Shown here in pieces: positions 1 to 26,321 of a stretch of 26,323 bases of DNA; the stretch's first letter is position 1, and each line of letters begins with the position of its first letter. The translations under genes and the position numbers were made by a program. The notes beneath the pieces are model-generated. The model was not told the DNA's origin. It made no database searches and worked only from the letters and a program-made list of their open reading frames with translations. The stretch is from a virus: positions 1 to 26,323 of IMG/VR virus record IMGVR_UViG_3300020205_001789; one strand, written 5' to 3'.

Positions 1-88
1 AACGATCTATGTTGTCATTATAATCAACAAATCGGGAATGAATACAACATCCCCAAGACCACCAAGCATCTTCAAACCATTTTTTCAT
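1..88 (-). CDS. Hypothetical protein, cut off by the window edge
   Basis: An open frame starts with ATG at 88 and runs off the left edge, showing 29 residues (begins MKKWFEDAWW, then a GCC pair and SRFVDYND). The ATG shares the ATGA tetranucleotide with the stop of the upstream gene, and GGAAGG lies just upstream as a ribosome binding site. The visible part is rich in tryptophan and has two adjacent cysteines. It is probably the second gene of the short unit starting at 297. I do not recognise the family. The C-terminus is not visible, so neither length nor function can be judged. Confidence 0.55.
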   Translation of the reverse strand, partial: MKKWFEDAWWSWGCCIHSRFVDYNDNIDR

Positions 89-297
89 TTTCCTTCCAGA
101 ATATCAAGTTGTTCAGCAGCATAACCACCAAAGTCAATCTCGCAACCTTCCTCACAATAACCGGGCAGAGCATCAATCAGGTAATCATCAAATCCAAGAA
201 ATACCTGAATGGCACGGCGTTTGTCGTGTTCTGTGATGGCAGTATGAGGAGAAGCAATAACCTTGGTTACAATCTCAAAGAGTTCTGCTTGAGTCAT
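85..297 (-). CDS. Small hypothetical protein (70 aa)
   Basis: I place the start at the ATG at 297 (protein begins MTQAELFEIV). A longer frame is open to 378, but that extension runs through a promoter cassette shared with three other loci, and its -10 hexamer (319-324) lies inside it. AAAGGAC precedes ATG 297. The protein is acidic with a C-x3-C pair (CEEGC) near residue 50. It is the first gene of its unit and overlaps the next by ATGA. I do not recognise the family. The placement is supported by the promoter, the binding site and the coupled downstream start. Confidence 0.6.
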   Translation of the reverse strand: MTQAELFEIVTKVIASPHTAITEHDKRRAIQVFLGFDDYLIDALPGYCEEGCEIDFGGYAAEQLDILEGK

Positions 298-318: not shown

Positions 319-377
319 ATTGTAGGGCAGATGGAGTGCCTTGCGGAGTCTTCTATGCCAGTTGTTCAAGTGTCCCA
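319..377 (-). promoter_or_regulatory. Box-type promoter cassette, copy A
   Basis: The dyad box is at 354-377 (contains ACTGGCATA and GGACACTT). After 29 bases comes the -10 hexamer TACAAT at 319-324. No -35 is recognisable. It precedes the gene at 297 and overlaps the stop of the preceding gene. The leader shares TTCATACGCA with copy B. Confidence 0.65.
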
Positions 378-707
378 AGGTGCTTTGCGATTCATAAGTC
401 TTTTGATACTCTCCATAGTAGCTTCACTGGGAAGTGATAATTTTTCTACAAGAGCAGCAAAATCCCCTTCCTTTAAGAAAATAGTTTTTGGTGGATAGGA
501 ACCTTTACCCCAAAACTCTTCAAACTTATAGACATATTCCATATGTTCCCATCCATGATTTAATGAGCGCCAGAAAGATCCCCAGATATGATAGTCATCA
601 AACCTGAATCCTTCGTGAGACATCAAGCGATACCACCACCAGAATGGAGTATACTTAATCGGTTTTAATCCGATGATCCACTTGTTTAAGAACATTGGGA
701 AGTTCAT
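366..707 (-). CDS. Aromatic-rich protein with TacA/DUF1778-antitoxin-like C-terminal tail
   Basis: The protein has 113 residues. Residues 1-70 are unusually rich in Trp, Tyr and Phe (for example FWWWYRL at 22-28) and match no family I know. Residues about 76-112 (IFLKEGDFAALVEKL ... RLMNRKAPWD) resemble the toxin-binding tail of DUF1778/TacA-type antitoxins, which ends in a proline-tryptophan segment after a Leu-rich helix. The ribbon-helix-helix DNA-binding domain that precedes this tail in real antitoxins is absent. No GNAT toxin gene is nearby. The start overlaps the previous stop by ATGA. The stop codon lies inside the regulatory box at 354-377. A role in neutralising a host acetyltransferase toxin is inference only. 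Confidence 0.65.
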   Translation of the reverse strand: MNFPMFLNKWIIGLKPIKYTPFWWWYRLMSHEGFRFDDYHIWGSFWRSLNHGWEHMEYVYKFEEFWGKGSYPPKTIFLKEGDFAALVEKLSLPSEATMESIKRLMNRKAPWDT

Positions 708-886
708 GTCAAATCACCATCATCGAAGGTAAAGTATTCATAGATTTGAGACATCACACAATCCTCAATAGATTGTAGAATAGCACCCTCCAGTGGACTA
801 TCATTATGCTTGAAGGCACGACGATAACCACGCGCAACACCTTGTTCAATCGCCATCTCTAAGATGACAATAGTTTTAGCTTTCAT
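704..886 (-). CDS. Small hypothetical protein (60 aa)
   Basis: A 60-residue protein beginning MKAKTIVILEMAIEQGVARGY. The N-terminal half looks like a basic amphipathic helix and the C-terminal end is acidic (FDDGDLT). GGGGA lies about ten bases before the ATG and is a plausible ribosome binding site. The gene shares ATGA junctions with both neighbours, so it is probably translationally coupled to them in the unit that starts at 1119. Small proteins of this appearance are common in T4-like cyanophages, but I cannot name a function. Confidence 0.65.
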   Translation of the reverse strand: MKAKTIVILEMAIEQGVARGYRRAFKHNDSPLEGAILQSIEDCVMSQIYEYFTFDDGDLT

Positions 887-1119
887 TCGATTACATCCCC
901 GATTTCAGAAACAATTTCCCAGTGAGCATCTGCTTTATCACCGAAACGATTAGTTCCAGTTCGAGTGCTCACCCACATAAAGTATTTACGATTCTCAGCA
1001 GCAAGAAACAACTCACCACCACTATCCTGTTCTACAATACAGACGGGGTTGCCTTCCATTGTATTGGCAAGACGATTCTTTGCCTTGCTGGATTTAGGTT
1101 TGACTACTACTTTCCTCAT
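883..1119 (-). CDS. Small hypothetical protein (78 aa), first gene of its unit
   Basis: The start chosen is ATG 1119 (protein begins MRKVVVKPKSSKAKNRLA). An upstream ATG at 1152 is in frame but would place the -10 hexamer (1141-1146) inside the gene. With start 1119 the predicted leader is about 15 bases and no clear Shine-Dalgarno sequence is visible, so initiation may depend on the short leader. The N-terminus is very basic. The middle (IVEQDSGGELFLAAENRKYFMWVSTRTG) looks like a small beta-rich fold. The gene is followed by two coupled genes down to 366. I do not recognise the family. Confidence 0.6.
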   Translation of the reverse strand: MRKVVVKPKSSKAKNRLANTMEGNPVCIVEQDSGGELFLAAENRKYFMWVSTRTGTNRFGDKADAHWEIVSEIGDVIE

Positions 1120-1140
1120 CGGTCTGTTGCGTATGAAACT

Positions 1141-1199
1141 ATTATACGGCAAAACACTCCCCTGTGGTGGGGGAGTGTGCCAGTTAGTCAGGTGTCTCC
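1141..1199 (-). promoter_or_regulatory. Box-type promoter cassette, copy B
   Basis: The dyad box is at 1176-1199 (contains ACTGGCACA). The -10 is TATAAT at 1141-1146. The total length of 59 bases is identical to the other copies. The 29 bases between box and -10 hold most of a terminator hairpin. It serves the gene at 1119. Confidence 0.7.
1151..1178 (-). terminator. Rho-independent-type terminator hairpin
   Basis: The stem ACACTCCCC/GGGGAGTGT is nine perfect pairs with a seven-base loop and is followed by TTT on the transcribed strand. It ends the unit that starts at 3770 and lies immediately upstream of the next -10 hexamer. Confidence 0.75.
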
Positions 1200-1369
1200 T
1201 CGCTGTAGTGAATCTGAAGATTTTGTCCTGTAATAGTCATATGATACATCTTACCATCTTTTAGATACACTCCCATCCATACAGCACTATCACTCAAAGA
1301 TTCATAATGCCACATTTTAATGTCTTCTAGAACAATCTCATCTGGATTTTTCACTCTAAATCTACTCAT
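1184..1369 (-). CDS. Small hypothetical protein (61 aa)
   Basis: A 61-residue protein beginning MSRFRVKNPDEIVLEDIKMW. It probably forms a small beta-rich domain (YLKDGKMYHMTITGQNLQIHY). It is coupled to the preceding gene by an ATGA overlap and is the last gene of the unit starting at 3770. Its stop codon lies inside the dyad box at 1176-1199, and a strong hairpin terminator follows. No family recognised. Confidence 0.6.
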   Translation of the reverse strand: MSRFRVKNPDEIVLEDIKMWHYESLSDSAVWMGVYLKDGKMYHMTITGQNLQIHYSEETPD

Positions 1370-1947
1370 GAGAAATTGTAATGAACGTCAGTGTAAAACT
1401 CTTTGTAGCAATTTTTGTTTGAAAGTTTCATCATCACAGGAGGAATGTAATAAGCACATTCAGTAAAGAAATCTTCCCTACTGAGAAACTTCACACCATA
1501 CAACATCCAAGTGCCAAACTTTTCGTGGAAATTACGAACAGCACGATATTCTTGTGATGTGATTGCTTTGTATTTGTCTGGTCCGTCAGGTGGGAAATCA
1601 TCTCCGTGTGGTATTGCCTGTGTCATCATAACACAGGTAGTTTGACCTTCCCCCGTGCCGAAGTATTCAGCAATCATATAGACCCAGTATTCGTCTTCTG
1701 GGCGGTCTTCGCCATAGTTCTTACGATACTCTTTCATACAGGCATCAGCAACCAGTTGGAAGTTTTCTTTCTTCTTTGCTTCCAGTTCTGCTCGTAGCTC
1801 TACCTTTTCTGTTTCATTAAGTTCTTTGAGAGCATCGGAATACTTACCGATACCAGCAATAGCAGTTTTCATTACTTCAATTCTTTTGTCTTCAAGATAT
1901 TCATCAATCGCTTCTTTCTTTACTTGGTAGGGGTCAATTTTAGTCAT
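1366..1947 (-). CDS. Hypothetical protein (193 aa)
   Basis: A 193-residue protein. Residues about 1-75 are predominantly charged helix (KKEAIDEYLEDKRIEVMKTA, then ELRAELEAKKKENFQL), probably a coiled coil. Residues 80-193 form a more globular part with several cysteines and aromatic residues (CAYYIPPVMMKL near the C-terminus). AAGGT precedes the ATG. It overlaps both neighbours by ATGA. I see no catalytic motif and no membrane segment, and I do not recognise the family. Confidence 0.7.
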   Translation of the reverse strand: MTKIDPYQVKKEAIDEYLEDKRIEVMKTAIAGIGKYSDALKELNETEKVELRAELEAKKKENFQLVADACMKEYRKNYGEDRPEDEYWVYMIAEYFGTGEGQTTCVMMTQAIPHGDDFPPDGPDKYKAITSQEYRAVRNFHEKFGTWMLYGVKFLSREDFFTECAYYIPPVMMKLSNKNCYKEFYTDVHYNFS

Positions 1948-2222
1948 GATAAAAATACCTTAAGTGTTCGTCCCTGATCTTGTATTGACACTTGGACATT
2001 AGAGCAATCATATTGAGTAAACTCTCGTCCTTTTTTGCCAATCACTTCTACGCGGGTGACATTTGGAAATGATTCAATGGAATCGCCATCGGGATAAATT
2101 TGTTTGTTTGCTGCTTCTCTTCGTGCTGCTTCTTCAAGCATTTCTTCGTGTGTCATAAATCCATCCATACAATCTAACCAAGGAGAGTCATCTTTTTCTA
2201 GTAAGTTATGCTCATTCATCAT
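1944..2222 (-). CDS. Small acidic hypothetical protein (92 aa)
   Basis: The frame is open up to 2291, but that extension overlaps the upstream gene by 80 bases. I therefore prefer the ATG pair at 2222/2219 (protein begins MMNEHNLLEKDDSPWLDC), which overlaps the upstream stop by about ten bases. No convincing Shine-Dalgarno sequence is seen for either start. The protein has a short helical stretch (THEEMLEEAARREAANKQ) followed by a beta-rich C-terminus. It ends in an ATGA overlap with the next gene. Function unknown. Confidence 0.55.
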   Translation of the reverse strand: MMNEHNLLEKDDSPWLDCMDGFMTHEEMLEEAARREAANKQIYPDGDSIESFPNVTRVEVIGKKGREFTQYDCSNVQVSIQDQGRTLKVFLS

Positions 2223-2505
2223 AGTTGCACTGGTTGTCGATATCTTTCGCATAATCCCAGTTCCAAGTTCGAGTAAACAGATCGACAACAAATGAAAACC
2301 TGAAGATACTAATCATCAAAGCAAGTGGTCCATGTCTAGACGATGATAATTGGAAATACCAAGTTGGTTCATCATCATAAGAGAATGATAGTTGTATCAA
2401 CGATACTCCTCTCAGTCGCCTCGGATAATGTCTGCTAGTATTAAAAATTTGAACATACCACTCATGTCCAAAGTCTTCTCGGTAACTAGTTTTGAATAGT
2501 TTCAT
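2212..2505 (-). CDS. Hypothetical protein (97 aa), aromatic-rich
   Basis: A 97-residue protein beginning MKLFKTSYREDFGHEWYVQI. It is rich in Phe, Trp and Ser and looks like alternating beta strands (LIQLSFSYDDEPTWYFQLS, then MISIFRFSFVVDLFTRTW). The ribosome binding site AGGTAGGAG before ATG 2505 is strong. It shares ATGA with the preceding gene. It resembles the small single-domain beta proteins common in cyanophage early regions, but no function can be assigned. Confidence 0.65.
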   Translation of the reverse strand: MKLFKTSYREDFGHEWYVQIFNTSRHYPRRLRGVSLIQLSFSYDDEPTWYFQLSSSRHGPLALMISIFRFSFVVDLFTRTWNWDYAKDIDNQCNYDE

Positions 2506-2759
2506 TTGCTCCTACCTTTACGCTTACGCTTGTTCTCTTGAATCAACTGCTGATACAGATCAACCAGTTCATCTTCATCATACCATATGATGGGATCTTC
2601 CACATCAGGATTCAACCATTCCATAAACTCATCGCCAATAGCAATGGCATCATCATTACGCTCATTACGAATCAAATACATGAACCTACGCTCACGATTC
2701 TTCACAATATGCTCAACTTGATCCGATAATTTCTGTGCTTTACTCAAAGTGGCAGACAC
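2502..2759 (-). CDS. Small charged hypothetical protein (85 aa)
   Basis: An 85-residue, highly charged, probably all-helical protein (begins MSATLSKAQKLSDQVEHIVK). It has an acidic middle (NPDVEDPIIWYDEDELVDLY) and a strongly basic tail ending KRKRKGRSK that could contact nucleic acid. It overlaps the preceding gene by 16 bases. A sigma70-like promoter lies inside that gene 21 bases upstream of this ATG (2780-2808), so this gene may also start its own transcript. Family not recognised. Confidence 0.65.
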   Translation of the reverse strand: MSATLSKAQKLSDQVEHIVKNRERRFMYLIRNERNDDAIAIGDEFMEWLNPDVEDPIIWYDEDELVDLYQQLIQENKRKRKGRSK

Positions 2760-2986
2760 TCCAATCGATTGTTAAGGTGATCATAGGACACAAACTTGTA
2801 TCCGTCAAGTGCTTCGTTGATAGCTGTCACAAATTCTAAAGGAAATTTGTGATGATATACCCAGAAGGTTTTCTTCTCGGTATCAGTGGTAGTATCCCTA
2901 GGGCGAACACTCATACGATCATAATTGATCTCCATCCAACTACGGAGATCTGATACTACAAATTGGGAGAGTTTCTGTGCTTTCAT
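2744..2986 (-). CDS. Small hypothetical protein (80 aa)
   Basis: An 80-residue protein beginning MKAQKLSQFVVSDLRSWMEI. The layout looks like an alpha/beta domain (FWVYHHKFPLEFVTAINEALDGYKFVSY) with no cysteine apart from one near the C-terminus. It overlaps the upstream gene by ATGA. Its 3' end carries the promoter-like sequence serving the next gene. No family recognised. Confidence 0.65.
   Translation of the reverse strand: MKAQKLSQFVVSDLRSWMEINYDRMSVRPRDTTTDTEKKTFWVYHHKFPLEFVTAINEALDGYKFVSYDHLNNRLECLPL
2780..2808 (-). promoter_or_regulatory. Sigma70-like promoter inside the gene upstream of 2759
   Basis: TTGACG (2803-2808), 17 bases, TATGAT (2780-2785). The expected transcription start lies about 15 bases ahead of ATG 2759. 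It is embedded in the C-terminal codons of the preceding gene. Confidence 0.6.
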
Positions 2987-3228
2987 TTGACAAATACCAC
3001 GTTAGGTTTTACAGAGAGTTCATACATACGGACCAGACAATCATATGCGGTTTTATACAGAGCATATTCATTAGGATTTAGCTCATCCCACTCAATATCC
3101 CATTCGCTATCCCAATCAGGAGTGCCATCTTGAGACATGGGCATCTGATAGACACCACCAGTGTGATCAAGACTTACGGCAATACCGAGAGGACCAATAA
3201 CGATGTAGAGATCGTCTTCGTGAAGCAT
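2983..3228 (-). CDS. Small acidic hypothetical protein (81 aa)
   Basis: I start this gene at ATG 3228 (MLHEDDLYIVIGPLGIAVSL). A TTG at 3285 would extend it by 19 residues, but that stretch exactly contains a sigma70 promoter (TTGACA 3280-3285, TAAAAT 3257-3262) whose expected start lies about 20 bases ahead of ATG 3228. The protein has a beta-rich N-terminus and a very acidic middle (DWDSEWDIEWDELNPNEY), which could mimic DNA charge or simply be a linker. No clear ribosome binding site is visible. It ends in an ATGA overlap. Function unknown. Confidence 0.6.
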   Translation of the reverse strand: MLHEDDLYIVIGPLGIAVSLDHTGGVYQMPMSQDGTPDWDSEWDIEWDELNPNEYALYKTAYDCLVRMYELSVKPNVVFVK

Positions 3229-3256
3229 TTTGAACACCGGAATGAAGGACAAAAGT

Positions 3257-3285
3257 ATTTTAGCAGAACATGTTCCGCGTGTCAA
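3257..3285 (-). promoter_or_regulatory. Sigma70-like promoter at the junction upstream of 3228
   Basis: TTGACA (3280-3285), 17 bases, TAAAAT (3257-3262). The -35 overlaps the stop codon of the upstream gene. The expected start is about 22 bases before ATG 3228, which decides the start of that gene. Confidence 0.65.
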
Positions 3286-3770
3286 CCACGTTTGTAGTTG
3301 AAACCGACCACGTTATCCATATATAGGTATCCACCCGACCAATCAGCATTAGCAAGAACGAATTCACGCTCTTTAATAACACGGAGATCGTAACGAACAC
3401 CCTTAGCAGGAGAGCGCCAAGATGCGGATTTGTAGACTTCGCCAGTCTTCTTGTCTACAAAACAATGAACAGAGCGGGAACCACCATCAACATAAACAAC
3501 CTTGTGGTATTTACGACCAGATTCAAAGATAAAATCTGCGGAACAACGACCATTCTTTAGGTCAGTGATACATGATTCATGATAGTTAACGCTGTTCACA
3601 TCACCAGCATCTGCATGATAGATAGATTTCTGATGACTCAGAATAGAATAGTCAATGTAATTCTGGCGCAGTGCCTCGCACAGCATGTAGGTCCACTTAA
3701 CAACATTCAATTGAATGGTATTCTTAGCGTCTTGCTGAGCAACGAATTGATCGAAGGTGGCGCTGGTCAT
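3282..3770 (-). CDS. Conserved-looking cyanophage hypothetical protein (162 aa)
   Basis: First gene of the second left-arm unit, with a -10 hexamer at 3793-3798 and a good ribosome binding site (AGGAGA) just before ATG 3770. Residues 1-45 look helical (FDQFVAQQDAKNTIQLNVVK, then YMLCEALRQNYIDY). Residues 60-162 look beta-rich (VVYVDGGSRSVHCFVDKKTG, then RYDLRVIKEREFVLANADW). I recall near-identical proteins of unknown function in other marine cyanophages, but this is memory and not a search. I see no catalytic motif. Confidence 0.75.
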   Translation of the reverse strand: MTSATFDQFVAQQDAKNTIQLNVVKWTYMLCEALRQNYIDYSILSHQKSIYHADAGDVNSVNYHESCITDLKNGRCSADFIFESGRKYHKVVYVDGGSRSVHCFVDKKTGEVYKSASWRSPAKGVRYDLRVIKEREFVLANADWSGGYLYMDNVVGFNYKRG

Positions 3771-3792
3771 GGTCTCTCCTCTTGATCTCTTT

Positions 3793-3851
3793 ATTATAGA
3801 CCCTCAGGTGGTGCTGGCGACGAGGTGTGTGACACTAAAGCAACTGGCACC
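3793..3851 (-). promoter_or_regulatory. Box-type promoter cassette, copy C (box inverted)
   Basis: The box is at 3828-3851 and the -10 TATAAT at 3793-3798. The box reads GGTGCCAGTT then AGTGTCACA on the transcribed strand, which is the reverse complement orientation of copies A and B. It serves the gene at 3770, which has an AGGAGA binding site. Confidence 0.68.
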
Positions 3852-4100
3852 CTGCGGCGGTGGCATGGCAGAATATGGTGTTACAAATTCAGCAAGTTTG
3901 CCAGGTTTCTTAGCATTGACTGGGGATACAATCTTCATATCCTTCTTGCGAATAAATCCCCAGATGCTCTTTACTTCTTCAGTCGTAAAACTATAAGGAA
4001 AAGAATGATATAACCAGATAGCATGATGCTTGGCATCAAAATCGCGCTGAACCACAAATTTGTATCCATCAGGTGCCTTCGGTAGACTGATCTTGTTCAT
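3804..4100 (-). CDS. Small hypothetical protein (98 aa), last gene of the pebS unit
   Basis: A 98-residue protein beginning MNKISLPKAPDGYKFVVQRD. Residues 1-65 look like a compact alpha/beta domain (HHAIWLYHSFPYSFTTEEVK). The last 30 residues (FVTPYSAMPPPQGASCF and onward) are translated from the regulatory cassette that serves the next unit, so they may be an unstructured read-in tail. It overlaps the 42-codon gene upstream by 32 bases. No family recognised. Confidence 0.6.
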   Translation of the reverse strand: MNKISLPKAPDGYKFVVQRDFDAKHHAIWLYHSFPYSFTTEEVKSIWGFIRKKDMKIVSPVNAKKPGKLAEFVTPYSAMPPPQGASCFSVTHLVASTT

Positions 4101-4197
4101 TTTGTAATAATGTAAATAGTTTTTGATACAGATCTTTCATCATCTGTAACTCATCATCAGATAGAGTTTTACTTAGTTCTTCCCAGTTAGGTTCCAT
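4069..4197 (-). CDS. Short acidic ORF (42 aa) between pebS and the next gene
   Basis: A 42-codon frame starts with ATG 4197, which overlaps the pebS stop as TAATG, and ends with TGA at 4071-4069. It begins MEPNWEELSKTLSDDELQMM and continues as an amphipathic helix rich in Leu, Asp, Glu and Gln. The start coupling to pebS, the clean helix pattern and the lack of any other use for these bases support a real gene. It overlaps the following gene by 32 bases in another frame. Function unknown. Confidence 0.55.
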   Translation of the reverse strand: MEPNWEELSKTLSDDELQMMKDLYQKLFTLLQNEQDQSTEGT

Positions 4198-4817
4198 TAG
4201 TATACAAATAGAAAGTCGTCAACAAATGCTTTTGATTTTTGTTCATCGTAGATGCTCCGCATGAATCCCGAGATTGGATCCAGTTTACGCATATATGCGT
4301 CAAAATCACGATATTGTAACGTATCGTAGCCATGTGGTGCCTCGGTCAGAACAATATCTTTATACACAGCAAGATATTGTTTGAAGTCATCAAGATAGTT
4401 ATTCACCTCAGACATCTTACACTTACGAACAAAGATATGTTCACTGAAATGATTGCCCATCTCAAAGAATCTGTATTCTTGTCTGTCTACTGGTAGTCTA
4501 TCACCAACGCTAAACAGATAGTTTTCTACTGGATGCTGAAAGTCCCACACGATAATAACTTTGTCCTCATTAAATCCCATGAGATCAATACCAAAGCAAG
4601 GAGTATTTTTGTCCGTCAATGGGTAGAGAACATGATTGTAAATGTCAGTCTTGTCGTTACGAACTAATGCCTCTCTGGTTCTAAGAAAGTATCCACCACG
4701 ATAGATATTACCATCCATCGTCATCTTACCTTCCCAGTGATCCCAAACCTGTGTGAGTTTGAGTTCTGGGAAGGTATCGAATAGGATAGTTTTATACTCT
4801 CCCCAGATGTCCTTCAT
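4197..4817 (-). CDS. pebS: Phage ferredoxin-dependent bilin reductase, PebS type
   Basis: This 206-residue protein matches the ferredoxin-dependent bilin reductase family and most resembles cyanophage PebS. PebS reduces biliverdin IX-alpha by four electrons to phycoerythrobilin, taking electrons from ferredoxin. Recognisable segments are PCFGIDLM (73-80), VWDFQHPVENYLFS (90-103), YRFFEMGNHFSEHIFVRKC (115-133), YMRKLDPISG (175-184) and AFVDDFLF (197-204). The two aspartates known to be needed in P-SSM2 PebS (D105 and D206) correspond to D78 and D180 here. The N-terminus is about 27 residues shorter than in that protein, ahead of the core. It is coupled by ATGA to the upstream gene and lies downstream of cp12. 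PcyX or PebA activity is possible, because the family cannot be subdivided by eye with certainty. Confidence 0.93.
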   Translation of the reverse strand: MKDIWGEYKTILFDTFPELKLTQVWDHWEGKMTMDGNIYRGGYFLRTREALVRNDKTDIYNHVLYPLTDKNTPCFGIDLMGFNEDKVIIVWDFQHPVENYLFSVGDRLPVDRQEYRFFEMGNHFSEHIFVRKCKMSEVNNYLDDFKQYLAVYKDIVLTEAPHGYDTLQYRDFDAYMRKLDPISGFMRSIYDEQKSKAFVDDFLFVY

Positions 4818-5140
4818 AGTGCCAAAATATCCTCTGCTAGATATTCCGGAATATAATCGCCTGCGTCCGGATGAAGAACAGAATCGAGAGGATCAATAGG
4901 ACGATGACCATTTACCATCTTCTTCAGCAGTTTACACTTCTCAAGATACGTCTGATGATAGTCAGACCATGTATCAATCTCATGAACGAGATCATTAAAA
5001 AATTGTTCTGCTGAAGTATCTTCATCAGTAATGTAATCACCAACGATGTCAGTCAGGCGATCTTTGCGGGCAGATTGGTATGATGTAGTCATGTAATTAT
5101 GTGGGTAAGTGTTCAGGGAATGATCAATTTTAGTTGTCAT
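4814..5140 (-). CDS. Hypothetical protein between cp12 and pebS (108 aa)
   Basis: A 108-residue protein beginning MTTKIDHSLNTYPHNYMTTS. An alternative start is Met17. The middle looks helical (DRLTDIVGDYITDEDTSAEQ, then YHQTYLEKCKLLKKMVNG). The C-terminus is acidic with a PDAGDYIPEYLAEDILAL segment. It overlaps cp12 by 11 bases and pebS by ATGA, so it is probably cotranslated with both. I do not recognise the family. Confidence 0.65.
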   Translation of the reverse strand: MTTKIDHSLNTYPHNYMTTSYQSARKDRLTDIVGDYITDEDTSAEQFFNDLVHEIDTWSDYHQTYLEKCKLLKKMVNGHRPIDPLDSVLHPDAGDYIPEYLAEDILAL

Positions 5141-5342
5141 GAATTTTACATTCTATGGCACCAGGATTCTCATCACAATATAGTTCTAGAGGACTTGGAT
5201 CGTGATGATCTTCCGGATGTTTAGTAGCATAACGCTCTAGTTGTTCTAGCTCTTCCTCAATGTGACGGCGAGATTGAGAAGATACCATAGGATCTTCAAG
5301 AATGCGTCTATCTTTTTGAATATGTATTTCTATGCTTTCCAT
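5130..5342 (-). CDS. cp12: CP12-like Calvin-cycle inhibitor
   Basis: The last 20 residues of this 70-residue protein (PLELYCDENPGAIECKIHDN) match the C-terminal signature of CP12, including its cysteine pair with eight residues between (C56 and C65). In cyanobacteria CP12 binds GAPDH and then phosphoribulokinase and inhibits both. Phage copies are thought to divert host carbon flow from the Calvin cycle to the pentose phosphate pathway. Residues 1-50 are charged helix (HIEEELEQLERYA). The N-terminal cysteine pair and the AWD_VEE core of cellular CP12 are missing. A TTGACA-18-TATGAT promoter lies inside the upstream gene (5430-5459). It overlaps the next gene by 11 bases. Confidence 0.85.
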   Translation of the reverse strand: MESIEIHIQKDRRILEDPMVSSQSRRHIEEELEQLERYATKHPEDHHDPSPLELYCDENPGAIECKIHDN

Positions 5343-5363
5343 ACTAGTTTTGAGATAATGTCC

Positions 5364-5591
5364 TTAATCATCGGAATGTATTCCGTAGTCTTTGCGAATT
5401 TTAATGAGTGCTCGCTTGAGTTTGAAGTTATCATAACGCAAACGAATCCCTAATGTCAAGACAAACCAGCGTTTCACCATATTGATGCGAAACAACTGAA
5501 TCTGTAGTGCCACCCACTGACTCACATTCGGATCGACAATGATTATGTATGCGATTACTGCAAATATAGTCAGCAATACGTAGTTAGTCAT
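5364..5591 (-). CDS. Small membrane protein (75 aa)
   Basis: Residues 3-20 (NYVLLTIFAVIAYIIIVD) form a clear hydrophobic segment, a signal anchor or single membrane helix. A second, weaker hydrophobic stretch follows (QWVALQIQLFRINMV), and a basic C-terminal half (RLRYDNFKLKRALIKIRKDY) probably stays in the cytoplasm. A strong ribosome binding site (AGGGGGG) precedes ATG 5591. A sigma70-like promoter is embedded in the coding sequence and points at cp12. No family recognised. Confidence 0.65.
   Translation of the reverse strand: MTNYVLLTIFAVIAYIIIVDPNVSQWVALQIQLFRINMVKRWFVLTLGIRLRYDNFKLKRALIKIRKDYGIHSDD
5430..5459 (-). promoter_or_regulatory. Sigma70-like promoter for cp12, inside the membrane-protein gene
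   Basis: TTGACA (5454-5459), 18 bases, TATGAT (5430-5435). The expected start is about 80 bases upstream of the cp12 ATG. It could give cp12 and pebS expression independent of the helicase promoter. Confidence 0.55.
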
Positions 5592-5600
5592 TTAACCCCC

Positions 5601-5819
5601 CTAATGCTTAGACCATAATTGTTCGTTCTTACGAACCATCCATAGCAATTCATTGGTCTTCTCAAAGTCTATCAAAGATGCACTAGAGCGTTCATATAGG
5701 ATCTGAATGATGTCTTGTAGAATCTTATGGTTCTCTACACCATTATCAATATATGAGTCTAGTGCCTCTCTCAGATAGCGTTGACGCCAATATTCCGGAG
5801 AGTATGGTTTGTAAGTCAT
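5601..5819 (-). CDS. Small helical hypothetical protein (72 aa)
   Basis: The frame is open to 5957, but the first 46 codons would overlap most of the upstream gene and encode an implausible Arg-rich stretch, so I use ATG 5819 (MTYKPYSPEYWRQRYLREAL). The protein is helical and charged, with the pattern YSPEYWRQRYLREALDSYID then ILQDIIQILYERSS. I recall small cyanophage proteins with a YSPE-W-RYL start and unknown function. No clear ribosome binding site is seen. Confidence 0.6.
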   Translation of the reverse strand: MTYKPYSPEYWRQRYLREALDSYIDNGVENHKILQDIIQILYERSSASLIDFEKTNELLWMVRKNEQLWSKH

Positions 5820-5841
5820 AATATAGTGCTCAGATGATACA

Positions 5842-6018
5842 TTATTTAGTTTCCTTCTTGCGAATCTTCTTGAGACCCTTATACAGCTCCTTGATCTGGT
5901 GGTATGCTTCCTCTTCGCTGATCTTCTCACCCATTTGCAGACCAACAATGATGTCAATCCTGTTGCCGAAATGGAGCAAAGCTCGCTCCATGTCGTTCAT
6001 ATTGTCCCATTCATACAT
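5842..6018 (-). CDS. Small helical hypothetical protein (58 aa)
   Basis: The start at ATG 6018 (MYEWDNMNDMERALLHFGNR) is supported by a GAGGT ribosome binding site eight bases upstream, which overlaps the helicase stop. A longer frame to 6114 lies inside the helicase gene and is rejected. The protein is helical with a very basic C-terminus (ELYKGLKKIRKKETK). It is coupled to the helicase gene. Function unknown. Confidence 0.65.
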   Translation of the reverse strand: MYEWDNMNDMERALLHFGNRIDIIVGLQMGEKISEEEAYHQIKELYKGLKKIRKKETK

Positions 6019-6028
6019 AATAGTTACC

Positions 6029-7282
6029 TCAGATAGAAAATTCAGTAGCAGCGATACCCTTGACAAAGATATTGTCAACGATATTCTGGAGACGCTTCTC
6101 GGTGCGTTGACCATAGTTGGCGAACACTGGAACAGTTACGAATCCAGTCTTCTTACGATAGAACTCACACTGACCGGCAACAATCTTACCAGCAGCGATA
6201 TCAGCAGCATCACGACGATCAAGACGAATCACGCGACCAATAGTCTGTGCCATCTCGATCACCGGCAGGCAGCGCAGCAGGATGGTGTGAGTGAGACCAG
6301 GGCAGTTGATACCCTCAGCAAGAATGCTGTAGTGGAAGATCACAAACTTAAGAGTAGGATCTTCGCCCCACTTGGTCAGCGTGTTAAAGAACACATCACG
6401 ACCAACTTTGTTGCCATTCACATAAGCACCATGCTTGGCAGTGATGTGAAGAACATTATAACCCATAGCAGTGAATTCGTCAACAACATTGGTGCTGTTG
6501 AGCAAACGCCACAGAACCTTAGTGTTAGGAGCAGCAACAAGGATCTTCTGAGCATGATCCTCATCAAGATCACTGATAATATCCATCAGAACCTGACGAT
6601 CATTATCAGCAGCAGCAAGAGACTTCTGACGCTTGAAATCGACTTTGTGTGCCTGAATGGTGGGAGCAAGGATGCTACCATTGGCAATCAACTCAGTAGC
6701 TGGCACACTAATCAACTCAGGACCATATACATCGGTATTGTTCATACCATTAGCATACGGACTATTGTGATACTTAGGAGTGGCAGTAAAGAAGTAAGCG
6801 TTGTCGGCATTGCCAGCAACATCAGCAACGCTAGGGAACACATGACGCTGAACACTATTGTGTGCCTCGTCAAAGTAAACAAAGTTCACCTCGATCTCAC
6901 TCTCAACAATACGATGGAGCGACTGATAGGTGGTGAAGATGATACAATGCGTGTTAGCAGAGTAGCACATGTCTTGATACAGACGAATACGCTCAGGTTT
7001 GGTAGTATGGAAGTGCTCAGTCTCACCGCTGTGAACATGACCCACAATGGCATTCACGCTACCATTCAGAGCAGACCAGAACTCTTCACAGAGTTGGTTA
7101 GCAAGCAGAATACGAGGAGCAACAACTACAACAGTCTTAGGGTTGATAGCAGTCATAAGACGACGCTCAACATCTTTAATAGCAATCAGAGTCTTACCAC
7201 CACCGGTAGGGATGATAACACGACCGCAGGTGTTCTGAAGCATGGCGTCCAGAGCACGTTCTTGGTGGGGACGAAGGCGCAT
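6029..7282 (-). CDS. Superfamily 2 DEAH-box helicase
   Basis: This 417-residue protein has the ordered motifs of an SF2 ATP-dependent helicase: an upstream RPHQ element (4-7), Walker A PTGGGKT (25-31), VVAPRILLANQ (53-63), DEAH (138-141), TAT (166-168), LAEGIN (321-326) and QTIGRVIRL (346-354). SF2 enzymes unwind or translocate on nucleic acid using ATP. No nuclease, methylase or accessory domain is visible, so it is a short two-lobe helicase. It could be UvsW-like (branch migration in T4 recombination) or a restriction-type helicase homologue; I cannot decide. It is the first gene of the unit that leads to cp12 and pebS, with a box-type promoter at 7305-7363. Confidence 0.9.
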   Translation of the reverse strand: MRLRPHQERALDAMLQNTCGRVIIPTGGGKTLIAIKDVERRLMTAINPKTVVVVAPRILLANQLCEEFWSALNGSVNAIVGHVHSGETEHFHTTKPERIRLYQDMCYSANTHCIIFTTYQSLHRIVESEIEVNFVYFDEAHNSVQRHVFPSVADVAGNADNAYFFTATPKYHNSPYANGMNNTDVYGPELISVPATELIANGSILAPTIQAHKVDFKRQKSLAAADNDRQVLMDIISDLDEDHAQKILVAAPNTKVLWRLLNSTNVVDEFTAMGYNVLHITAKHGAYVNGNKVGRDVFFNTLTKWGEDPTLKFVIFHYSILAEGINCPGLTHTILLRCLPVIEMAQTIGRVIRLDRRDAADIAAGKIVAGQCEFYRKKTGFVTVPVFANYGQRTEKRLQNIVDNIFVKGIAATEFSI

Positions 7283-7304
7283 GGGAGTCGTTGAATGTCT
7301 TCAT

Positions 7305-7363
7305 AGTATAGGGTCATCCGGTGCCCTGTGCGTGGGGGCTGTGCCAGTTCCCACTTTGGCACA
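7305..7363 (-). promoter_or_regulatory. Box-type promoter cassette, copy D (perfect dyad)
   Basis: The box at 7340-7363 is the cleanest dyad: TGTGCCA, ten bases, TGGCACA. The -10 is TATACT at 7305-7310. It serves the helicase gene and, through it, the genes down to 3804 including cp12 and pebS. Confidence 0.72.
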
Positions 7364-11281: not shown

Positions 11282-12184
11282 TTATATTTTAATTAAATAT
11301 TCTACTAATATAAATTTACCAACAATATCATCAATTTTAATTGTATTATCTTGTGATATATTTACTAAGGTGGAGATATTAGATGATTCAAGATTGGTGC
11401 TAATTGTATTTTGTGTGGTATTTCGGGTGACTCTCGATCTAGTTAATTGATGACTATGTTCTGTTCCTGCTGCATCTCCTCCATATCCAACACTTTCTGG
11501 CCCAAGTTTATCTAATTGTATAGCTCCAACAGAAGGAGAGGCATCCTTACCAACAACTGAACATTGATTACCAGCACCACCACCACAATTTCCATCATCA
11601 GTACGTGGAGGATTAGTTAAAAATGATTGGGGATAATTTCCATAATGACCATGAGTTAGATATCCGTCAATAGATACTGTTTGTGGAGTTAAAGCACTAC
11701 TTAAATTACTAACAAATGTTCTTCCGGATGCTATATCTAAGGGGATAGATGGCACGACAAATTCACCAGAATATATTATTTCAATTTCACTTCCCTGATT
11801 TAAATCTAATTCTACACCAATTCCAACTCTTGGTAAAAATCTTCCATTTGAAGTATCTTCAATATTAAGTGAATCATATCTCCCAGAAGATGATCCAGCT
11901 ATAATGTTCTTAGATCCTAAATCTGGAAGTTGAAACTCATCGTTGTCTAACTCAGTATCATCTTTTTTAAATTTGCAATCTTGCCCTGTTCCTAATATTT
12001 GAGATAATTCAATATATTCTTCTGCTTTTTTTACAGATCCATCACATCTTAAATAACCGGCTGGAACATAATCAATCCATTGAGATTCATCTGGATTACT
12101 TCCCTCAATTTTACGCGCAAAGGAAATAATTGTGCCAGGAAATATGCCATATTTTCCCCTTTCAAAAGAATATCTAGAAGGCAT
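11282..12184 (-). CDS. Tail collar-domain protein, copy 2
   Basis: The protein has 300 residues. The collar domain is at the N-terminus (PAGYLRCDGSVKKAEEYIEL at 41-60, ILGTGQDC, then FQLPDLGSKNI). It is more diverged than in its two neighbours. Two HxH motifs (178-180 and 243-245) and cysteines at 200 and 208 in a Gly-rich loop fit a metal-bound trimeric tip. The protein ends KFILVEYLIKI, like the other copies. It lies three bases from the next gene and two from the previous one, so the three copies are probably cotranslated. Confidence 0.8.
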   Translation of the reverse strand: MPSRYSFERGKYGIFPGTIISFARKIEGSNPDESQWIDYVPAGYLRCDGSVKKAEEYIELSQILGTGQDCKFKKDDTELDNDEFQLPDLGSKNIIAGSSSGRYDSLNIEDTSNGRFLPRVGIGVELDLNQGSEIEIIYSGEFVVPSIPLDIASGRTFVSNLSSALTPQTVSIDGYLTHGHYGNYPQSFLTNPPRTDDGNCGGGAGNQCSVVGKDASPSVGAIQLDKLGPESVGYGGDAAGTEHSHQLTRSRVTRNTTQNTISTNLESSNISTLVNISQDNTIKIDDIVGKFILVEYLIKI

Positions 12185-23931: not shown

Positions 23932-24004
23932 TGGAGAATAGGAGACTCGAACTCCTGACTTCCTGCTTGCAAAGCAGGCGCACTACCAACTGTGCTAATT
24001 CCCC
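23932..24004 (-). tRNA. tRNA-Ala (anticodon TGC)
   Basis: 73 bases. The seven-pair acceptor stem GGGGAAT/ATTCTCC has one G-T pair, the anticodon loop is TTTGCAA, the T-loop is TTCGAGT, and the discriminator is A. CCA is not encoded. It is the last of three tRNA genes behind the promoter at 24391-24419. Confidence 0.92.
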
Positions 24005-24093
24005 AAGTGACCCCTCTGTTTGAGCATCGTTGATAGGCTTGAGGGGTGTTAATGCTACGGCATTCTGGTTTATCTTTCCAGCGCATATAGCAA

Positions 24094-24165
24094 CTGGGAT
24101 GGCTGGATTCGAACCAGCAACCTAAGAGTTAACAGCTCTTCGCACTGCCGTTGTGCTACATCCCA
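24094..24165 (-). tRNA. tRNA-Asn (anticodon GTT)
   Basis: 72 bases. Acceptor stem TGGGATG/CATCCCA is perfect. The anticodon stem AAGAG/CTCTT encloses CTGTTAA. The T-arm is GCTGG-TTCGAAT-CCAGC, and the discriminator is G as expected for Asn. CCA is not encoded. Confidence 0.92.
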
Positions 24166-24278
24166 ATATAGAAAGTTACTGGACTTACACCAGTTCAAAA
24201 GGCATTGTCTGCTTGTCTCGATTCTTTGACTTAACTTCCTTTGGCGTCTTTCTAGGCTATGTGCCTAACGACTTCCAA

Positions 24279-24350
24279 AGCCCCCGACTGGATTTGAACC
24301 AGCAATCTTTGCTTTACAAGAGCACTGCATTACCATTATGCTACAGGGGC
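24279..24350 (-). tRNA. tRNA-Thr (anticodon TGT)
   Basis: 72 bases. Acceptor GCCCCTG/CGGGGGC, anticodon loop CTTGTAA, T-arm GCTGG-TTCAAAT-CCAGT and discriminator T fit Thr. The outermost pair of the anticodon stem is a G-A mismatch. It is the first tRNA behind the promoter at 24391-24419. Confidence 0.9.
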
Positions 24351-24390
24351 AAATGAGGGCGTCACGCATTCGGACCTTTAATACTCCCTC

Positions 24391-24419
24391 AGTATAGCAT
24401 CTATCTATTTGGATGTCAA
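24391..24419 (-). promoter_or_regulatory. Sigma70 promoter for tRNA-Thr, -Asn and -Ala
   Basis: TTGACA (24414-24419), 17 bases, TATACT (24391-24396), near the full consensus. It begins in the last codons of the HNH gene and points at tRNA-Thr, about 35 bases downstream. Confidence 0.8.
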
Positions 24420-24892
24420 GAGATGCCGTAAACATAATTTGACCATTCAGGAACTCTAGACTTTTCAATTGTTAAAAACATACTATTGATGGGTGCTTTA
24501 GGTTTCCTGGCAAGTTTCATACCAGTTTGTTCAAGATACCTATCTCCTTTTGATGTGTTACAAGAAGAACAAGCAACAACCATATTCTCCCAGGTATCTT
24601 CACCACCTTTAGATCTAGCTAAAACATGATCAATTGTCAGATGACGGGTGGAACCGCAATACTGACACTTATTATCATCTCTTTGATAGATCATATTACG
24701 AGTTGGGTGTGTAACCCTCATCCTTTTAAAAGGTAAAGCAATGTAATTTACAAGTCGAATTACTCTCTTAGAAAGCATGTGAGCTTTGTTCTTGAGAAGT
24801 AGAACAATTGCTCGTTTCCAATTTGTAATGTTAATTGGTTCGTAAGAACTATTCAACACTAGTACTGGATTATACGGGTCTGGATAGTCCAT
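24416..24892 (-). CDS. HNH endonuclease
   Basis: The protein has 158 residues. The zinc-bound HNH core is complete: C76 and C79 (CQYC), D88-H89 (IDHV), N103, and C108 and C111 (CSSC), followed by N112 and K115. The N-terminus (PVLVLNSSYEPINITNWKRA) is the extension seen in HNH proteins of cyanobacteria and their phages. HNH enzymes cut DNA, and free-standing copies in phages are often homing nucleases. It lies between cpeT and three tRNA genes, a common location for such elements. Its last codons contain the -35 hexamer of the tRNA promoter. Possible ribosome binding site AAGAG. Confidence 0.9.
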   Translation of the reverse strand: MDYPDPYNPVLVLNSSYEPINITNWKRAIVLLLKNKAHMLSKRVIRLVNYIALPFKRMRVTHPTRNMIYQRDDNKCQYCGSTRHLTIDHVLARSKGGEDTWENMVVACSSCNTSKGDRYLEQTGMKLARKPKAPINSMFLTIEKSRVPEWSNYVYGIS

Positions 24893-24914
24893 AACTCTTA
24901 CTACGCTGGATTAT

Positions 24915-25412
24915 TTAGAAGGTTTTCGCAAATTCAAAAGGACCATATTCTGTGCCCCATATTTGCTTTTTAGTGACTGGATCATAACCACGATCAATTA
25001 CATGATAATAATTAATACCCAATTGCGTCTTGGTTGTAAAATAGGTGTCTTTGCCATTTCTTTTTACAATACAATTGCATCCTTCAGAAGAACCGACAAA
25101 GACATCATCAACCAGATTAAATAGTATGTCACACCCCTCACGATATGTCAAGTTGTCTTGAGTGATCGGTTCATTAGGATTGGTAATGGAATAGTTTTTG
25201 ACGACTAACCTACCATCCGAAAGAACAGGTTCCAACACAAATTTACGATACGGAGAGTTTAGCATATAATGATATGCTTGCTCCCCATAAATCAATTTTC
25301 CATCAACATTTTCATGAATAATTCTCACATACGCAAACCTAGAAGGATTGCGAAATGCTTGACGCTTGTTCTCAAATTTGCCAATTAGGCGATTACGAAA
25401 TTCATTAATCAT
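24915..25412 (-). CDS. cpeT: CpeT/CpcT-type phycobiliprotein lyase
   Basis: The start chosen is ATG 25412 (MINEFRNRLIGKFENKRQAF), which overlaps the upstream stop by eight bases, giving 165 residues. Family features in order are GKFENKRQA (11-19), GEQAYHYMLNSPYR (43-56), GC (93-94), DRGYD (140-144) and WGTEYGPFEF (152-161). T-type lyases bind bilins and attach them to a conserved beta-subunit cysteine of phycobiliproteins. Phage copies bind phycoerythrobilin, and the product of pebS in this window is that pigment. The nearest known relative from memory is the cyanophage PhiCpeT group. It lies downstream of a tRNA block and upstream of the HNH gene. Confidence 0.9.
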   Translation of the reverse strand: MINEFRNRLIGKFENKRQAFRNPSRFAYVRIIHENVDGKLIYGEQAYHYMLNSPYRKFVLEPVLSDGRLVVKNYSITNPNEPITQDNLTYREGCDILFNLVDDVFVGSSEGCNCIVKRNGKDTYFTTKTQLGINYYHVIDRGYDPVTKKQIWGTEYGPFEFAKTF

Positions 25413-25671
25413 CTTTAGGTAAGAGTTCTGGATTATCCAATTCCATTTCAAACATTAGAGGATGAGCTGCTTCTGTAATCAAATAATTTGATGCCATATA
25501 CATATCTTCATCATCAAAGTCACGATTAGTTAGTGCCTCTGTTTGAACTGATGGGTGGTCCTGTATCATTTGAGGAAGTTCATCAAATGTATAAGGAATA
25601 CCCTGTATGAAATACATACGCACCACTTCTCCCATGTAAAAACAATAGGATTGTGAAAGATGGTATTTCAT
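25405..25671 (-). CDS. Small acidic hypothetical protein upstream of cpeT (88 aa)
   Basis: ATG 25671 (MKYHLSQSYCFYMGEVVRMY) is preferred because GTGGAAA lies upstream. ATG 25689, Met13 and Met19 of the chosen frame are alternatives. The C-terminal two thirds is acidic and probably helical (FDDEDMYMASNYLITEAAHP, then FEMELDNPELLPKDD). It overlaps cpeT by eight bases, so the two are likely coupled and may act together, although nothing in the sequence shows this. No family recognised. Confidence 0.55.
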   Translation of the reverse strand: MKYHLSQSYCFYMGEVVRMYFIQGIPYTFDELPQMIQDHPSVQTEALTNRDFDDEDMYMASNYLITEAAHPLMFEMELDNPELLPKDD

Positions 25672-25706
25672 ACTTGAATTTCCACACATGTTATATAGTG
25701 TGAAAG

Positions 25707-25789
25707 TAGGAGCGGGGGGACTTGAACCCCCACAGGCAATGCCCGACAGATTTTAAGTCTGGTGTGTCTACCGATTCCACCACGCTCCC
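25707..25789 (-). tRNA. tRNA-Leu (anticodon TAA), class II
   Basis: 83 bases. Acceptor GGGAGCG/CGCTCCT, anticodon loop CTTAAAA, a long variable arm (TCGGGCATTGCCTGT) as normal for Leu, and discriminator A. It is separated by four bases from tRNA-Ile. Confidence 0.93.
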
Positions 25790-25793
25790 AAGG

Positions 25794-25865
25794 TGCTTCT
25801 GCGGGGAATTGAACCCCGTTCACTCCGTTATAAGCAGAGGGCTTTAACCAATAAGCAACAGAAGC
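25794..25865 (-). tRNA. tRNA-Ile (anticodon TAT)
   Basis: 72 bases. Acceptor GCTTCTG/CAGAAGC, D-stem GCTT/AAGC, anticodon stem CTCTG/CGGAG around CTTATAA, T-arm CGGGG-TTCAATT-CCCCG and discriminator A. The unmodified anticodon would read the ATA codon. Only CC of the CCA end is encoded. Confidence 0.9.
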
Positions 25866-25877
25866 ATTTCTTGTATT

Positions 25878-25953
25878 TGGTCGGATTGCTAGGACTTGAA
25901 CCCAGTTCACGCTACCCCTGGCAGCGGGCCTTAACCGATTAGGCGACAATCCG
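25878..25953 (-). tRNA. tRNA-Pro, atypical anticodon loop (AGG), CCA encoded
   Basis: 76 bases with an encoded CCA. The acceptor CGGATTG/CAATCCG starts with C1-G72, and A73, G35 and G36 are present, all known Pro identity elements. The anticodon loop is CCAGGGG, so position 33 is C instead of the near-universal T and the anticodon by geometry is AGG. The D- and T-arms are well formed. Confidence 0.78.
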
Positions 25954-25967
25954 TTGACCATAAGACA

Positions 25968-25996
25968 ATCATACCATAAATGTGGCATGTTGTCAA
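25968..25996 (-). promoter_or_regulatory. Sigma70 promoter for tRNA-Pro, -Ile and -Leu(TAA)
   Basis: TTGACA (25991-25996), 17 bases, TATGAT (25968-25973), in the 44-base gap between tRNA-Arg and tRNA-Pro. It can also serve the small ORF, cpeT and the HNH gene downstream. Confidence 0.8.
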
Positions 25997-25997
25997 G

Positions 25998-26071
25998 CGT
26001 CCTTTGAGAGATTCGAACTCCCGACACATAGGTTCGTAGCCTACTGCTCTAATCCACTGAGCTAAAAGGAC
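25998..26071 (-). tRNA. tRNA-Arg (anticodon ACG)
   Basis: 74 bases. Acceptor GTCCTTT/AAAGGAC, D-stem AGCTC-type arm, anticodon loop CTACGAA, T-arm CGGGA-TTCGAA-type and discriminator G. A34 would need deamination to inosine for full CGN decoding. Confidence 0.92.
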
Positions 26072-26075
26072 AAGG

Positions 26076-26147
26076 CGAAGGGTGAGGGATTTGAACCCCC
26101 ATCGCAAGGTTTTGGAGACCTGCATCTTACCGTTAGACTAACCCAAC
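26076..26147 (-). tRNA. Probable tRNA-Trp (anticodon CCA), degenerate acceptor stem
   Basis: 72 bases. The anticodon loop is CTCCAAA (CCA), the T-arm GGGGG-TTCAAAT-CCCTC is good and the discriminator is G as in Trp. The acceptor stem GTTGGGT/ACCCTTC has two adjacent T-T mismatches at positions 2-71 and 3-70, and the outer anticodon pair is C-T. It could be inactive. Confidence 0.75.
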
Positions 26148-26169
26148 AAAATTTGGATATAAAATCCAA

Positions 26170-26243
26170 TGCCCGATACAGGACTCGAACCTGTAAAACC
26201 TTGTTTCTAAGACAAGTATGTATACCAATTCCATCAATCGGGC
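26170..26243 (-). tRNA. tRNA-Leu (anticodon TAG), short variable loop
   Basis: 74 bases. Acceptor GCCCGAT/ATCGGGC, anticodon stem CTTGT/ACAAG around CTTAGAA, T-arm ACAGG-TTCGAGT-CCTGT and discriminator A. The D-arm (GATGGAATTGGTATA) is Leu-like, but the variable loop is only GTTTT where a class II arm is expected. Confidence 0.85.
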
Positions 26244-26247
26244 AAGG

Positions 26248-26321
26248 CTCCCAGAGAAGGGGTCGAACCTCCAAAAAACTCATTCAAAGTGAGGTGACTT
26301 TACCAATTTGTCTATCTGGGA
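26248..26321 (-). tRNA. tRNA-Gln (anticodon TTG)
   Basis: 74 bases. Acceptor TCCCAGA/TCTGGGA with T1-A72, anticodon loop CTTTGAA, T-arm GGAGG-TTCGACC-CCTTC with one G-T pair, discriminator G. It is the first tRNA of the visible cluster, and its promoter lies outside the window. Confidence 0.9.

Follow-up and report, generated by a model that had tools for sequence, protein, structure and literature searches.

A fixed-geometry promoter class of T4-like cyanophages resembles the host yfr2 promoter and is probably activated by the host regulator PlmA

Introduction

Cyanomyoviruses lack MotA, AsiA, Alt and Mod, and how their transcription begins in the absence of these proteins has been described as an open question (PMC2984593). 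The promoters considered here lie on a 26,323-bp virus fragment from IMG/VR (record IMGVR_UViG_3300020205_001789; the whole fragment is called the window below). It belongs to a T4-like cyanophage whose relatives are Syn1, S-RIM44, S-RIM32, S-CAM1 and S-PM2. Four times on the minus strand, which is also the gene direction in the window, the fragment carries a 24-bp dyad box followed by 29 bp and then a -10 hexamer (TACAAT, TATAAT, TATAAT and TATACT), a unit referred to here as a cassette. An original prediction, made from the letters of the window alone, had taken these units for an activator-dependent promoter class, leaving the question of which protein reads the box. The answer that we consider probable, on the strength of sequence comparison, is that the cassettes are early phage promoters that mimic the promoter of the host small RNA (sRNA) gene yfr2 and would be activated by the host protein PlmA. 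Two points go beyond the earlier reading: host yfr2 shares the layout, so that the likely activator is host PlmA and not a phage protein, and the spacer of 22-33% of cassettes contains an intrinsic terminator on the sense strand.

A promoter class with fixed geometry

The four 59-bp layouts had been placed at 319-377, 1141-1199, 3793-3851 and 7305-7363, and these coordinates proved exact, with minus as the strand. In a common orientation boxes 1 to 4 read TGGGACACTTGAACAACTGGCATA, GGAGACACCTGACTAACTGGCACA, TGTGACACTAAAGCAACTGGCACC and TGTGCCAAAGTGGGAACTGGCACA, and their ideal dyad is TGTGMCASTT-N4-AASTGKCACA. Box 3 is inverted with respect to boxes 1, 2 and 4, and its 29-bp spacing is nonetheless unchanged; a spacing that is kept in either orientation of an imperfect dyad would be expected if a symmetric dimer binds. 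When all sites of the window were ranked with a box matrix trained on other contigs only, the first four ranks were the four boxes, with scores of 24.8, 20.7, 19.8 and 12.1. Block shuffles of the window reach a best score of 12.0 on average, and box 4 alone would not stand clear of them; this weak box is therefore supported by its geometry and by its occurrence at an orthologous position. A joint cassette model, which combines box, spacing, -10 and the start element described below, finds exactly four cassettes in the window once the forward and reverse readings of a palindromic box are counted as one, and none in the reversed or shuffled sequence. Matrix and thresholds were set in this analysis and the joint model uses hand-picked -10 weights, and other choices would shift the counts given here. 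Three extra window cassettes at a threshold of 16 were the same palindromic boxes on the opposite strand and were merged. As an observation in its own right, box 2 read on the plus strand (1176-1234) has a TGTAAT 29 bp off with an ATG close behind (score 25.8), and might be bidirectional.

The geometry recurs far beyond the window. IMG/VR was scanned for AACTGGCACA-N15..45-TATAAT and offsets were counted in the fetched loci: 105 of 143 pairs fall at 28-30 bp (13, 64 and 28 pairs, respectively), and other offsets hold about one or two pairs each. A dyad predicts a peak of the second half-site 14 bp further out, and a scan with the inverted half-site (TGTGCCAGTT-N-TATAAT) indeed peaks at 42-44 bp (12, 35 and 8). 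Reversing the letter order as a control gave a flat distribution with no spacing peak in IMG/VR. Cyanomyovirus-like proteins are encoded at 77 of the 79 on-peak loci versus 27 of 100 control loci. Complete cyanophage genomes tell the same story, with a -10 count that peaks at offset 29 (73 boxes against a background of about 11). The box thus does not lie at random with respect to the -10, the outcome that the original prediction had named as its refutation, and the two peaks support an activator-type promoter class of fixed geometry. The claim that the spacing never varies holds for all four window copies at 29 bp; the class as a whole spans 28-30 bp, mostly 29.

The original prediction also proposed a scan of related cyanophages, and all eight of the complete cyanomyoviruses scanned carry merged cassettes, from 3 to 23 per genome. 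The merged total of 111 is made up of S-PM2 (23), P-SSM2 (18), S-RIM44 (17), P-SSM4 (16), syn9 (13), P-HM2 (13), S-SM2 (4), S-CREM1 (3) and the window (4). At threshold 16, with readings left unmerged, the counts are 30 for S-PM2, 26 for P-SSM2, 20 for P-SSM4, 19 for S-RIM44 and 15 each for syn9 and P-HM2, versus 0-3 in reversed and 0-2 in shuffled genomes. The joint model found no cassette in T4 (160 kb scanned) or in pelagiphage HTVC008M, and the dyad was not found in S-TIM5 or Ma-LMM01. Judged by sequence, the window promoters are members of a class common to most T4-like viruses of marine cyanobacteria.

Among 100 IMG/VR cassettes, the second box half, which lay outside the search pattern, is conserved as GMCACTT, and an A-T-A start element lies 6 nt past the -10, with 72-84% conservation per position. 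The starts predicted for the window (312, 1134, 3786 and 7298) agree with this class-wide element and give leaders of 15-16 nt to the ATGs at 297, 1119, 3770 and 7282; across the class the leader to the next start codon has a median of 18 nt (quartiles 15-22). The upstream gene ends near the box, at a median of 4 nt inside it and within -40 to +24 in 57 of 98 cases. The view that cassettes stand at the head of transcription units is upheld. A canonical -35 was considered and rejected, with TTGACA matched at 5 or more of 6 positions in none of the four window copies; a weak -35-like tendency remains class-wide (mean best match 3.3 of 6 versus 2.8 in shuffles). The description of the spacer as variable and devoid of TTGACA accordingly stands for the window and needs amending for the class, in view of that tendency and of the terminators found in the spacer.

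The spacer folds better than its shuffles, with a mean z of -1.43 compared with 0.02 for the downstream stretch. With a terminator defined as a run of T's behind a stem of 6 bp or more, and with the box end included, sense-strand hairpins of this kind occur in 33 of 100 IMG/VR cassettes and 24 of 111 genome cassettes, compared with 0.5-0.6% of shuffles and with reverse-strand counts of 11 and 9. For the spacer alone the sense and reverse counts are 33 versus 1 (IMG/VR) and 22 versus 2 (genomes). Only cassette 2 of the four in the window has such a hairpin, a 9-bp stem (ACACTCCCC/GGGGAGTGT, 1178-1154) with a 7-nt loop and then a T run. One of the genome examples coincides with a recorded structure: the S-PM2 stem-loop at 11369-11391 (PMC4503421) is contained in the S-PM2 cassette at 11347.

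Likeness to the host yfr2 promoter

Across 85,000 genomes of bacteria and archaea the exact ideal dyad is found at 44 places. Cyanobacteria account for about 14 of these, and five of the cyanobacterial exact dyads are followed about 30 bp on by a -10-like element and then by the Cyano-1/Yfr2 sRNA. Yfr2 is present in 186 of 201 Cyanobiaceae genomes. When the phage-trained matrix was applied to host genes, its best site lay 42-49 bp before the conserved 5' anchor of Yfr2 in 56 of 60 genes, and this site beats 95% of shuffles (p<0.05) in 53 of the 60. A set of 39 non-redundant picocyanobacterial promoters shows the dyad box as the most strongly conserved block upstream of yfr2, with the consensus TGTGACAGTTgag..AGtG.cC, and the best -10 most often lies 29-30 bp from it (20 of 39).

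In host genomes near-consensus dyads are rare. One Cyanobiaceae assembly stands apart, with seven near-consensus dyads on six contigs where most other assemblies have none; perhaps these are cyanophage contigs binned with the host. Four Nostocales loci share an exact dyad inside conserved DNA other than yfr2, which might be a further target of the PlmA type. Six exact dyads occur in one metagenome-assembled genome of the Pyrinomonadaceae (Acidobacteriota), SSF56, and other Acidobacteriota hold further ones, which poses the question of an unrelated regulator with a similar site. A different arrangement is seen at positions 12-390 of another locus, where about seven dyad boxes stand in tandem at intervals of about 58 bp, and what follows each box is TTGACATTT instead of TATAAT; arrays of this type also occur in IMGVR_UViG_3300008113_001711 and IMGVR_UViG_3300031784_003461. 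Such an array could be iteron-like or serve for titration, and a search for related plasmids gave no match.

PlmA as the candidate activator

The yfr2 promoter brings with it a candidate regulator. In Prochlorococcus MED4 the GntR-family protein PMM1637 binds the promoter regions of yfr2 homologues, which carry the CGRE1 motif; within that genome CGRE1 is confined to yfr2 promoters, and the induction of Yfr2 is mediated by PMM1637 (PMC6778093). This regulator is PlmA, which is found in all cyanobacteria and only there, and which has been linked with nitrogen status by way of PII-PipX and with redox state by way of thioredoxin (PMC6243067, PMC7344720). Its regulon is otherwise undefined, and an S. 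elongatus cell holds about 400 PlmA chains (PMC6243067). We infer that CGRE1 is the dyad described here (a TGTGACAGTT-N4-AACTGTCACA-like sequence). No link between PlmA and phages was found in the located literature on PlmA, Yfr2 or GntR.

On the reading that PlmA activates these promoters and that they are used early, a dimer of PlmA would bind the 24-bp dyad near -53, with the box spanning about -65 to -42. It would bring in the host RNA polymerase, carrying the principal sigma factor, at a -10 that has no good -35 and sits 28-30 bp beyond the box. Transcription would then begin some 6-7 nt past the -10 at A-T-A, giving a leader of about 15-22 nt. In a fifth to a third of the copies, one unit of about 60 bp would both stop the transcript of the upstream gene and start a new one. 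PlmA is present in the cell beforehand, so the phage promoters could fire at once upon infection.

The distribution of GntR proteins is consistent with a host-supplied activator, without proving one: a GntR domain was found in none of 12 phage records and not in the window, while 35 of 41 Cyanobiaceae genomes have one GntR protein above the cut-off. A phage-encoded GntR protein was accordingly rejected. MotA (PF09114) was likewise absent from all eight cyanomyoviruses and from the window in a search that did find the T4 protein as positive control, which bears out the earlier statement that this is not the T4 MotA system and led to the rejection of T4-style MotA control. These absences also count against an activator that is encoded by the phage or carried in the virion and has copied the host specificity, an alternative under which the promoter class would be just as real. 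Phages often do encode their own activators, as T4 does with MotA, and such an activator would fit both the rarity of near-consensus dyads in hosts and the better right half-site of the phage boxes. The match to hosts in box sequence, dyad form and 29-30 bp geometry is nonetheless best explained by a shared factor, and we regard a phage activator as rather unlikely. That the shared factor is a host protein other than PlmA, acting on both yfr2 and the phage boxes, seems slightly less likely still. It would be favored by the indirect identification of CGRE1 with the dyad and by the arm spacing; it is countered by the lack of any comparably conserved second element upstream of yfr2 and by the naming of PMM1637 as the binder of CGRE1-containing yfr2 promoters (PMC6778093).

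The remaining alternatives give the box a different function. Palindromic sites frequently serve as operators and repressors are common among GntR proteins, and PlmA or a phage protein might use the box to shut genes off later in infection. The position of the box ahead of the core polymerase site (about -65 to -42) and the general want of a good -35 partner for the -10 speak for activation, as does the mediation of Yfr2 induction by PMM1637 (PMC6778093), and an operator is judged improbable. Least credible of all is a dyad that acts as a DNA or RNA hairpin, whether as terminator, processing site or recombination site. Some 38% of boxes do fold with z below -1, and the T4-type PeSL cassettes discussed below also join a terminator to a promoter. 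The median box z is only -0.11, however, the arms match imperfectly (5.7 of 10), and a fixed distance from box to -10 would be needless for a terminator or processing site; a function as hairpin only was rejected on account of the imperfect pairing.

Several points weigh against activation by PlmA and need to be set beside the evidence for it. The number of consensus letters in the left and right halves is 8.3 and 5.2 of 10 in picocyanobacterial yfr2 boxes versus 7.5 and 8.4 of 10 in phage boxes, and given the poorer right half of the former the sites of host and phage are similar without being identical. The half-site centers of the dyad are about 17 bp apart, which is wide for a GntR dimer. 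The equation of CGRE1 with the dyad is drawn from the dyad being the strongest conserved element upstream of yfr2. Finally, S-TIM5 is without the dyad though its host should carry PlmA, and S-SM2 and S-CREM1 have only three or four cassettes; the case of S-TIM5 implies that the promoter device is optional.

A bolder version of the PlmA proposal, which we put forward tentatively and regard as somewhat less likely than not, is that T4-like cyanophages hijack this single host regulator to begin infection. Up to about 23 copies of a yfr2-type promoter, with a second half-site better than that of the host, would activate phage genes and might also draw PlmA away from yfr2, with the spacer terminator making each such unit of about 60 bp a stop-and-restart device. 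Speculatively, the better right half of the phage boxes would suit competition for scarce PlmA.

Genes behind the cassettes

The features of the window are collected in Table 1. Two of the four genes have homologues that also lie behind cassettes elsewhere: the DUF7717 gene of cassette 3 in P-SSM2, P-SSM4, S-PM2 and S-RIM44, and the helicase gene of cassette 4 in P-SSM4, S-PM2, S-RIM44 and syn9, in each case five genomes with the window. Ahead of the S-CREM1 homologue of the cassette-2 gene no obvious box was seen on inspection by eye. Cassettes precede a peptidase gene in seven genomes and cobS in seven, and the smaller recurrent groups include the gp32 gene (syn9, S-RIM44). Overall, 43 of 97 downstream proteins belong to groups of homologues that stand behind cassettes in different phages. 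Apart from the cassettes, the window carries nine tRNA genes (23932-26321, minus strand), with an HNH endonuclease gene (24416-24892) and a match to abiF RNA (RF03085; 24010-24046, minus strand) among them.

Table 1. Cassettes and associated genes in the window
Feature	Position	Strand	Remarks
Window	IMGVR_UViG_3300020205_001789		IMG/VR virus fragment, 26,323 bp
Gene behind cassette 1	85..297	-	70 amino acids, no family match; ATG 15 nt past predicted start
-10 TACAAT	319..324	-	29 bp from box 1; predicted start ~312
Dyad box 1 (TGGGACACTTGAACAACTGGCATA)	354..377	-	Top-ranked box of window
Gene behind cassette 2	883..1119	-	78 amino acids, phrog_1653, unknown function
-10 TATAAT	1141..1146	-	29 bp from box 2; predicted start ~1134
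Hairpin in cassette 2 spacer	1151..1178	-	Intrinsic-terminator-like; overlaps box 2 end
Dyad box 2 (GGAGACACCTGACTAACTGGCACA)	1176..1199	-
Gene behind cassette 3	3282..3770	-	162 amino acids, DUF7717 / phrog_818
-10 TATAAT	3793..3798	-	29 bp from box 3; predicted start ~3786
Dyad box 3 (GGTGCCAGTTGCTTTAGTGTCACA)	3828..3851	-	Inverted orientation
Gene behind cassette 4	6029..7282	-	417 amino acids, DEAD/ResIII helicase, phrog_16
-10 TATACT	7305..7310	-	29 bp from box 4; predicted start ~7298
Dyad box 4 (TGTGCCAAAGTGGGAACTGGCACA)	7340..7363	-	Weak alone (score 12.1)

Relation to known promoter systems

The closest known relative is the host yfr2 promoter itself (Cyano-1, RF01701; CGRE1, PMM1637/PlmA), with the same dyad box and 29-30 bp to the -10. 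The phage copies differ in driving protein genes, in their better-conserved right half-site and in their number of up to 23 per genome; their spacer also often contains a terminator, which none of 60 host yfr2 spacers does. T4 middle promoters are similar in having an activator box in place of a -35, but the box has another sequence and lies near -30 rather than at -65 to -42, and its activator MotA is encoded by T4 and not by the phages considered here. The late promoters of cyanomyoviruses (NATAAATA) belong to the same phages and are also read by the host polymerase; unlike the cassettes they have no upstream dyad, and the late element depends on gp55 (PMC2984593).

The promoter/stem-loop (PeSL) cassettes of T4-type phages consist of a terminator and an early promoter in a short intergenic unit, a description drawn partly from titles cited in PMC4503421; they are also regarded as mobile and as mediators of gene shuffling. 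In the cassettes described here the hairpin instead lies between activator box and -10 and is present in 22-33% of copies. The kinship with PeSL that had been hinted at is partly right, in that terminator hairpins occur in the class, but within the window in a single copy of four; the cassettes may be related to PeSL.

The class may not be new to the literature. For phage Syn9, a novel element is reported to control the early genes (Doron et al. 2016, ISME J 10:1437). That element is probably the promoter class described here, which would then have been described already; syn9 is among the genomes with cassettes.

Conclusions

Cyanomyoviruses are among the commonest viruses of the ocean, and the present comparison names PlmA as a candidate for the host factor that their promoters use. 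With PlmA tied to nitrogen and redox, the expression of virus genes could thereby be linked to the nutrition of the host and to light. Transcription units of cyanophages, in genomes as in metagenomes, can also be predicted readily with the help of the cassette.

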